Shown: positions 2,694 through 3,908 of the stretch, one piece after another
Layout: the number at the start of each line of letters is the position of its first letter
Numbering within the stretch: position 1 is the first letter of the stretch
Assembly (NCBI RefSeq): GCF_009649785.1
Contig: NZ_WJOK01000002.1
Span: forward strand, 1-64,000
Length of the DNA stretch: 64,000 bases
Direction of reading: 5' to 3'
Source: Agrobacterium tumefaciens
GTDB taxonomy: Bacteria; Pseudomonadota; Alphaproteobacteria; Rhizobiales; Rhizobiaceae
Position numbers and translations under genes: made by a program
The notes under the pieces: model-generated
Seen by the model: only the letters and a program-made list of their open reading frames with translations
Databases searched by the model: none
Told to the model about the DNA's origin: nothing

Positions 2694-3152
2694 TCATTGG
2701 CAGACGTCGACCCATTCCGCTCCCGTCAGTCGCGCCATCATGTCAGGCGAAATCCTTACCGCCGCATTGGTGGCACCCGCTGCCGGAACCACCTCGGGAT
2801 AGTTTTTCAGGGATATGTCGCAAAACACCGGAAGGGGAGAAGGCAATCCGAAAGGACACACGCCACCGATGGGATGGCTGGTCACCGCAACGACTTCTTC
2901 CGCCCCCAGCATGCGCGGCTTGGCGCCGAAATGATCGCGGAATTTACGATTGTCTAGCCGCTTCGTGCCGGCGGCAACGACGAGGAGAATTGTGTCGCCC
3001 GCCTTCAGGCAGATCGTTTTGGCAATCTGGTCAGGATCGACGCCGTGCGCTTCGGCAGCCAAAGCGACTGTCGCCGAACTCGTTTCCGTTTCGATAACGG
3101 TCACTTCGGGGGAATTCTCGGTGAAAAACGCTCTGACGGATTCGATGGTCAT
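2694..3152 (-). CDS. YbaK/EbsC family aminoacyl-tRNA deacylase
   Basis: This 152-residue cytoplasmic protein is a single YbaK/ProX-like domain. Members remove amino acids from mischarged tRNA in trans, for example Cys-tRNA(Pro) or Ala-tRNA(Pro). The family core is visible: an IAKTICLKAG segment with the conserved lysine early, the TKRLDNRKFRDHFG helix in the middle, and the glycine-rich HPIGGVCPFGLPSPLP segment. The latter is typical of the YbaK and PrdX-like branches. It is complete and free-standing, about 140 bp upstream (in chromosome order) of the PBP gene on the same strand. The exact tRNA substrate cannot be read from sequence. Confidence 0.85.
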   Translation of the reverse strand: MTIESVRAFFTENSPEVTVIETETSSATVALAAEAHGVDPDQIAKTICLKAGDTILLVVAAGTKRLDNRKFRDHFGAKPRMLGAEEVVAVTSHPIGGVCPFGLPSPLPVFCDISLKNYPEVVPAAGATNAAVRISPDMMARLTGAEWVDVCQ

Positions 3153-3269
3153 GCGTATTTATTAGGCGGTATGCCAAGAGGCTTCAAGGTGTGCGAAATA
3201 GCTATGCATTTTATGCAATGCTGCGCTGCGATGAAACGTCTGTTTTTTGAGCGGAAATCCTGTATCTTC

Positions 3270-3390
3270 AAATCATCGAAGCGACGCACTCCTCCTCCCA
3301 GCGTCGCCCGATTGGACTGACAATACTCCTCCTCCCAATTGTCAGTCAGTTTCAAGAACCCGGCGCACCTCCTCCCGCGCCGGGTTTTTG
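3270..3390 (+). ncRNA. Anti-Shine-Dalgarno trans-acting sRNA with three CCUCC-loop hairpins (alpha-r14 / cuckoo type)
   Basis: Three consecutive perfect hairpins present the same pyrimidine-rich loop. Hairpin 1 has arms 3281-3287 and 3301-3307. Hairpin 2 has arms 3316-3324 and 3338-3346. Both carry the identical 13-base loop ACTCCTCCTCCCA. Hairpin 3 has arms 3359-3366 and 3377-3384, a loop with CCTCCTCCC, and a T-run (3385-3389), so it is an intrinsic terminator. The loops are complementary to ribosome-binding sites. This architecture and length (about 120 nt) match the rhizobial alpha-r14 family (S. meliloti NfeR1), the cuckoo RNAs and the Rhodobacter CcsR RNAs as I recall them. The 5' end is estimated; a TATCTT box at 3263-3268 could be the -10. 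The likely role is repression of translation of many mRNAs, perhaps under stress. Confidence 0.85.
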
Positions 3391-3464
3391 CTGTTTAAGG
3401 CCTTGTTTCCCGCGACTTTCATTTGCCGACGCTTCACAAAAATCGCCGGGCTTTTTCAAAGAAA

Positions 3465-3493
3465 CTTGACTTTCAGGCCCTTCCAACCTAGGT
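3465..3493 (+). promoter_or_regulatory. Candidate housekeeping promoter of the cold-shock gene
   Basis: CTTGAC (3465-3470), a 17-base spacer and CTAGGT (3488-3493) resemble the rhizobial sigma-70 promoter CTTGAC-N17-CTATAT. A start near 3500 would give a leader of about 130 nt, the length typical of cold-shock mRNAs. Confidence 0.55.
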
Positions 3494-3585
3494 GTTCGCG
3501 CATCGATATTTGTTTGACGACCAGAGCTTCGGCGCCTTTTCTAAGGTGCACACGACGATCTTTCCTTCAAATTCGACCCAAGACC

Positions 3586-3601
3586 GCACTGCGCGCAGTG
3601 C
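3586..3601. repeat. 16-bp perfect palindrome in the cold-shock gene leader
   Basis: GCACTGCGCGCAGTGC is fully self-complementary and lies 31 bases upstream of the cspA-like start. In RNA it could form a compact stem close to the ribosome-binding site (AAGGAA, 3620-3625). It may be part of a temperature-responsive leader, or a protein-binding site. Confidence 0.6.
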
Positions 3602-3632
3602 AAATACAATTTGCCAACGGAAGGAAATCGTT

Positions 3633-3842
3633 ATGGCGACTGGTACAGTAAAGTGGTTCAACGCAACCAAGGGCTACGGCTTCATTCAGCCTGACGACGG
3701 TTCGCAGGACGTATTCGTTCACATCTCCGCCGTTGAGCGCGCTGGTATGACCTCCCTCAACGACGGTCAGAAGCTCTCCTACGAGCTGACGCAGGACCGC
3801 CGCTCGGGCAAGATGTCTGCAGGCGAGCTCGTCGCTTCCTGA
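3633..3842 (+). CDS. cspA: Cold-shock protein (CspA family)
   Basis: This 69-residue single cold-shock domain is an RNA chaperone that melts secondary structure in mRNA. The start [20 protein letters not shown] contains RNP1 (KGYGFI), and [13 protein letters not shown] contains RNP2. The ATG at 3633 is preceded by AAGGAA. A longer open frame upstream has no support, since family members begin at this Met. It lies downstream of the anti-Shine-Dalgarno sRNA terminator and has its own promoter and terminator. Several paralogues are usual in rhizobia, so the number suffix is not determined. Confidence 0.93.
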
Positions 3843-3881
3843 TAAGCGGCTTGGCCTGAACGGGTCATTCGTATGAATATG

Positions 3882-3908
3882 AAAGGCCGGAGTTTTCCGG
3901 CCTTTTTT
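3882..3908 (+). terminator. Intrinsic terminator of the cold-shock gene
   Basis: AAAGGCCGGA and TCCGGCCTTT form a stem around a TTTT-like loop, directly followed by a run of T. It lies 40 bases after the cspA stop. Confidence 0.85.

Follow-up and report, generated by a model that had tools for sequence, protein, structure and literature searches.

Does the RNA-like element that lies just upstream of a cold-shock gene in Agrobacterium act on that gene, or is it an independent regulator with targets elsewhere? The question is raised by a 64-kb stretch of an Agrobacterium genome (the window), in which an earlier note had described an sRNA gene at 3270–3390 with three hairpins presenting the same anti-Shine-Dalgarno (aSD) loop. 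On one side it is flanked by a divergent open reading frame (2694..3152, −), presumably ybaK, which has counterparts in 80 related loci and whose nearest named relative is from Agrobacterium arsenijevicii (97%). On the other side lies the open reading frame of a cspA-like cold-shock gene (3633..3842, +), with homologues of 74–99% identity in the same place in 36 loci.

Hairpin architecture and family of the RNA

The minimum free energy (MFE) structure of positions 3260–3400 contains three hairpins on the plus strand. Hairpin 1 (3275..3312, loop 3288–3300) has an inner stem of 7 perfect pairs (3281–3287/3301–3307), closed further by 3275–3278/3309–3312 with a small internal loop between. The stem of hairpin 2 (3315..3347, loop 3325–3337) comprises 10 perfect pairs (3315–3324/3338–3347), and that of hairpin 3 (3353..3390, loop 3367–3376) comprises 14 (3353–3366/3377–3390). 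The three perfect stems proposed earlier thus hold for hairpins 2 and 3, and for hairpin 1 in its inner pairs only. The 3′ arm of hairpin 3 runs into a T-run, and we read this hairpin as an intrinsic terminator, as the note had done; it is absent from the list of a terminator scan whose loop limit is 8, its own loop having 10 bases. Each loop carries CCTCCTCCC (3291–3299, 3328–3336 and 3368–3376). The 13-mer ACTCCTCCTCCCA forms both loop 1 and loop 2, bearing out the claim of two identical loops, and loop 3 is ACCTCCTCCC. The fold energy of the sRNA region, −52.2 kcal/mol, lies far below that of shuffled sequences (mean −28.8, sd 3.0; z = −7.7), and 0 of 200 shuffles were as low. The 64-kb window holds exactly three copies of CCTCCTCCC, all inside the sRNA (3291, 3328 and 3368), a count reached in 0/100 shuffles; fold and motif count together confirm the design of three hairpins with one motif per loop. 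Genome-wide the 9-mer is not enriched (50 sites versus 50 for the backward control), so it is unusual only through its clustering in hairpins.

An Rfam search of the whole window, repeated on 1.1 kb with the same RF02344 result, matched this family (ar14) at 3271..3392 (+), over the full length of the model (positions 1–123) and with 122.7 bits against a gathering cut-off of 58.8. The alpha-r14 family, for which the note had suggested a covariance-model search, was therefore named correctly, and the coordinates given in the note differ from the match only in small details. The RNA 5′ end is expected at ~3271–3275. All three hairpins leave CCUCCUCCC unpaired, the loops are conserved while the stems vary with covarying pairs, and a conserved promoter motif lies upstream, as the LysR-type box does in NfeR1, although an LsrB site here is putative. 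CcsR1 of Rhodobacter sphaeroides (RF02791), also named in the note, shares hairpins presenting CCUCCUCCC, but has two of them and is matured from the ccaF1 3′ UTR (PMC8625941). The similarity of design stands; the CcsR identity is rejected at 30.9 bits against a cut-off of 65.3. A CcsR1-type origin is further argued against by the divergent upstream gene and by the sRNA's own conserved upstream box.

Covariation in related genomes had been named beforehand as a test. The alignment of 52 sequences (43 distinct) combined the window copy with 36 orthologues and with 15 of 32 other ar14 loci, the four-motif copies of the same genome, tandem arrays and some other loci being left out. Changes on both sides were found in 31/35 pairs and 91.4% of cells were paired, falling to 33–41% when partners were slid by 1–3 columns. 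The observed values were reached by 0/500 shuffles on any of five measures, and the test was passed. No variation occurs in the columns of CTCCTCCC (loop 1) or of CCTCCTCCC (loop 3), and each column of loop 2 is either invariant or has an identity of at least 90%. At its loop 1 start, a single sequence (L020) is three bases short.

Sequence, structure, covariation, family match and promoter box are direct observations on this DNA, and their best explanation is that the window RNA is, very probably, an ar14-family trans-acting sRNA of ~118–122 nt with its own terminator, whose aSD loops block translation of mainly nutrient-uptake mRNAs. We further infer that it has targets in this genome, that its control is LsrB-like and that it is transcribed separately from cspA. 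The three unpaired C/U-rich loops would serve as interchangeable aSD seeds and pair with ribosome-binding sites resembling GGGAGGAG, chiefly those of genes for nutrient uptake (periplasmic solute-binding proteins); translation would be blocked where such a site is covered. Seed redundancy and silencing are expected by analogy with NfeR1 of Sinorhizobium meliloti (SmelC397), which is described as carrying three redundant aSD motifs, silencing two solute-binding-protein mRNAs and ntrBC, and being activated by LsrB at TGCA-N6-GCAT (PMC10746234, PMC8844928, PMC7143759). The two RNAs share three hairpins, CCUCCUCCC in each loop, variable stems and a LysR-type box upstream; in contrast to NfeR1, the window copy is linked to cspA. 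As CCTCC, the aSD core, is present in all three loops, they could instead mimic the 16S rRNA 3′ end and work chiefly on ribosomes at large, as a decoy or brake, and less on selected mRNAs. We consider this very unlikely, given that the conserved loop exceeds that core, as the invariant columns of loops 1 and 3 show, and that NfeR1 loop mutants are reported to no longer silence a chosen mRNA (PMC10746234).

Other RNAs resemble the proposed trans-acting sRNA in part. SmelA075/SmelA099 and the cuckoo RNAs, which form a broader grouping, are each built of three or four hairpin modules whose loops carry CCUCCUCCC (PMC3927594). AbcR1/AbcR2 likewise use aSD loops on ABC-transporter mRNAs, but belong to the alpha-r15 family, carry two different aSD motifs and bind Hfq (PMC7143759, PMC8844928), an interaction by which they are set apart from NfeR1 (PMC8844928). 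Publications already cover the family and its class of mechanism and, as judged by coordinates, even the orthologue of the window RNA. What we add, as judged from open-licence literature and without claiming priority, is the assignment of the cspA-linked C58 RNA to ar14, the cross-genus gene order, candidate targets and a doubt about RF02762.

Promoter region and counterpart in strain C58

Upstream of the sRNA on the plus strand, alignment of 37 promoters revealed a LysR-type box, TGCA-N6-GCAA (3205..3218), of the form TGC-N7-GCA and T-N11-A. The TGC-N7-GCA is kept in 37/37 promoters, at the place matching the LsrB box of NfeR1, and the window box is one base off the published LsrB motif TGCA-N6-GCAT (PMC10746234). 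This promoter sequence leads us to infer that the sRNA may be under an LsrB-like regulator. In Agrobacterium, the NtrC motif known from the promoter of NfeR1 is described as not evident (PMC10746234). A second element, GCTGCGCTGC, follows at 3220..3229 (+), with GCTGC-N1-2-TGC in 36/37. The alignment suggests CTGTAT (3260..3265, +) as a likely −10 element for the sRNA, and upstream of it we see no clear −35 element.

In A. tumefaciens C58, PMC3738593 lists C1_109477F at 109477–109594 of the circular chromosome (118 nt, with a Northern band of ~120 nt), together with its neighbours C1_109596F (the cspA leader), cspA (109823–110032), C1_110258F and C1_112676R. The window order ar14, RF02762, cspA, ar35, ar7 is the same, with similar spacing, and we therefore conclude that C1_109477F is the orthologue of the window sRNA, on the basis of gene order and coordinates. 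It resembles the window sRNA in neighbours, order and length, and ends just before the cspA leader. Two further family matches belong to this order: ar35 (RF02346, 4055–4195, +, 50.8 bits, cut-off 45), downstream of cspA, is positionally C1_110258F, and ar7 (RF02342, 6425–6557, −, 116.9 bits, cut-off 60) is positionally C1_112676R.

The RPKM values given for C1_109477F without TEX are 1503 (YEP log), 413 (YEP stationary), 15354 (AB) and 24677 (AB + acetosyringone), and with TEX 16287, 3009, 37950 and 34389, respectively (PMC3738593). The RNA is strongest in AB medium, and the effect of the medium is smaller with TEX than without. A transcript and a similar response to medium would be expected of the window copy by analogy.

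Unlike our assignment, which places it in ar14 by order and coordinates, C1_109477F is filed in print as an antisense RNA, to Atu0105 (PMC3738593), and the spellings 'ar14' and 'Smr14' have 0 occurrences in the main text of that paper. If the RNA were instead antisense in cis to a small protein-coding gene of the opposite strand, that gene would correspond here to a TTG-started frame of 68 codons (3355–3149, −), the candidate Atu0105, which is open for at least 60 codons in 20/37 orthologues. The TTG start, however, is retained in only 23/37, conservation tracks the RNA pairs, and the same study reports Atu0105 mRNA as not detected. We do not favour the antisense reading and hold it to be improbable in the extreme, though the frame test is mixed. 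A strongly expressed Agrobacterium RNA printed as antisense is now placed in the ar14 family.

Relation of the sRNA to cspA

The start of the annotated leader in C58 (109596), two bases after the sRNA end at 109594 (PMC3738593), would fit an sRNA that is part of the cspA unit, either through read-through or processing that yields the cspA leader or through regulation of cspA in cis. The linkage agrees with this reading: 36/80 ybaK loci have both the sRNA motifs and a downstream csp, and csp is absent from the 3-kb flank in the other 44. Among these 44, one (L057), truncated by the end of its contig, shows one motif, and in three others a solitary motif lies at a distance of 2.1 kb. Against it stands a likely cspA promoter, CTTGAC-N17-CTAGGT (3465..3493, +), with a predicted start at ~3500–3503. 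Its CTTGAC sits 164–174 nt before the cspA ATG in 37/37 loci, with YTANNT at a spacing of 16–18 in 34/37, while the third sRNA motif can be anywhere between 219 and 356 nt away from the ATG across the 37 loci. The sRNA motifs themselves lie at a nearly constant distance from ybaK among the ybaK loci. A scan for E. coli-type promoters, with 0 found here and 0.4 expected, did not detect the cspA element.

Expression in C58 also separates the two genes. Over four conditions the sRNA varies 60-fold without TEX and the cspA leader 2.3-fold, and with TEX the values are 13-fold and 1.3-fold (PMC3738593). Pairing of the loops with the cspA start region is predicted at −7.8 kcal/mol, near that of random 45-mers (mean −7.0), and cspA is unsupported as a pairing target. 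Moreover, csp/ybaK neighbours occur at 0 of 3 paralogue loci of the same genome and at 0/29 ar14 loci of other genomes. The cspA band of ~500 nt published for C58 (PMC3738593), on the other hand, is better matched by a start directly behind the sRNA and still counts in favour of shared transcription; from the predicted cspA start to the T-run after a terminator-like site (3881–3906) the distance is ~408 nt. On balance, membership in the cspA unit is unlikely and shared transcription is rejected as the likely case. Owing to the conserved promoter-like element of cspA and the differing expression ranges in C58, we read sRNA and cspA as independent neighbours, the sRNA being most likely switched on separately. 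The suggestion that the cold-shock neighbour may be meaningful therefore holds only in part: the linkage is conserved, but a joint promoter is unlikely and pairing with the cspA start is unsupported.

A separate cspA promoter would bear on the annotated cspA leader, RF02762 (C1_109596F thermometer), which matches at 3395..3632 (+) with 133.1 bits against a cut-off of 125. The match starts directly behind the ar14 terminator and takes in the conserved CTTGAC-N17-CTAGGT element. If cspA starts at ~3500, the first ~105 bases of this match would be spacer and promoter DNA rather than leader RNA, and the suggested leader would be ~130 nt long rather than 227. The RF02762 match, and with it the Rfam family, thus probably includes cspA promoter DNA.

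It is also conceivable, though we give it little credence, that the cspA-linked ar14 RNAs make up a separate ar14 subgroup whose location, in the order ybaK, LysR-type box, ar14, cspA, is fixed across Agrobacterium, Neorhizobium and close relatives, and that cooperation between the sRNA and the cold-shock RNA chaperone keeps it there. CspA might, for example, open or stabilise the sRNA or the leaders of its targets.

Candidate targets and further copies

Candidate targets in trans were sought through matching sites ahead of ATG. The genome contains 32 GGGAGGAG-N4-9-ATG sites versus 5 for the backward control; 30 of these came with a locus, and once 5 frames below 60 aa were dropped, 25 were scanned. 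Solute-binding proteins make up 8/25 (SBP_bac_1, 3, 5 and 8, DctP twice, NMT1 and Peripla_BP_6) and uptake components 10/25. The AAAAGGAG control (27 sites, 1 without a frame, 8 short, 18 scanned) yielded 1/18 solute-binding proteins and 3/18 transport components, giving one-sided Fisher p values, uncorrected, of 0.038 for solute-binding proteins and 0.094 for all transport components. As the TAAGGAGG control gave only 8 sites, AAGGAGG was used instead (97 sites, 30 with a locus, 11 distinct frames of at least 60 aa, 10 scanned with L211 left out); it yielded 0/10 solute-binding proteins and one ABC ATPase. The sequence data thus point to a weak enrichment for uptake genes, and strong Shine-Dalgarno sequences may favour solute-binding and transport genes anyway.

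Site conservation was assessed, with the genome's own copy counted, in 14, 6 and 12 of 30 loci each for two candidates (L141 and L140) and znuA, at identities of at least 71%, 65% and 59%, respectively. For L141, GGAGGAG is kept in 7/14 relatives, and GGGAGGA in 13/14 by reading of the leaders. For L140 the counts are 1/6 and 3/6, and for znuA GGAGGAG is kept in 0/12. With the enrichment p values uncorrected and site conservation uneven, the candidate targets are plausible, not proven. They name uptake genes as candidate targets of an ar14 RNA. The published NfeR1 target site in ntrB is not kept in this genome: the frame assigned to ntrB, solely on its position directly upstream of ntrC, lacks the 8-base site in its start region, and ntrB is rejected as a target here.

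The genome carries four ar14 copies, compared with six in S. meliloti, namely the window copy, one on contig C62 with three motifs, and two on C46 (L003 and L004), both of which have an extra, fourth motif upstream. One loop of L004 is changed to TTCTTCCTCCC. In an order-level sample, matches at E ≤ 0.001 were found in 103/297 genomes and matches over the cut-off in 55/297. Tandem arrays of six to nine CCTCCTCCC motifs occur at 10 of the 29 other-genome ar14 loci examined (L089–L092, L094, L098, L101 and L111–L113). Elsewhere in the window, a tRNA gene match (RF00005, 21916–22002, −, 61.2 bits) has a long variable arm.
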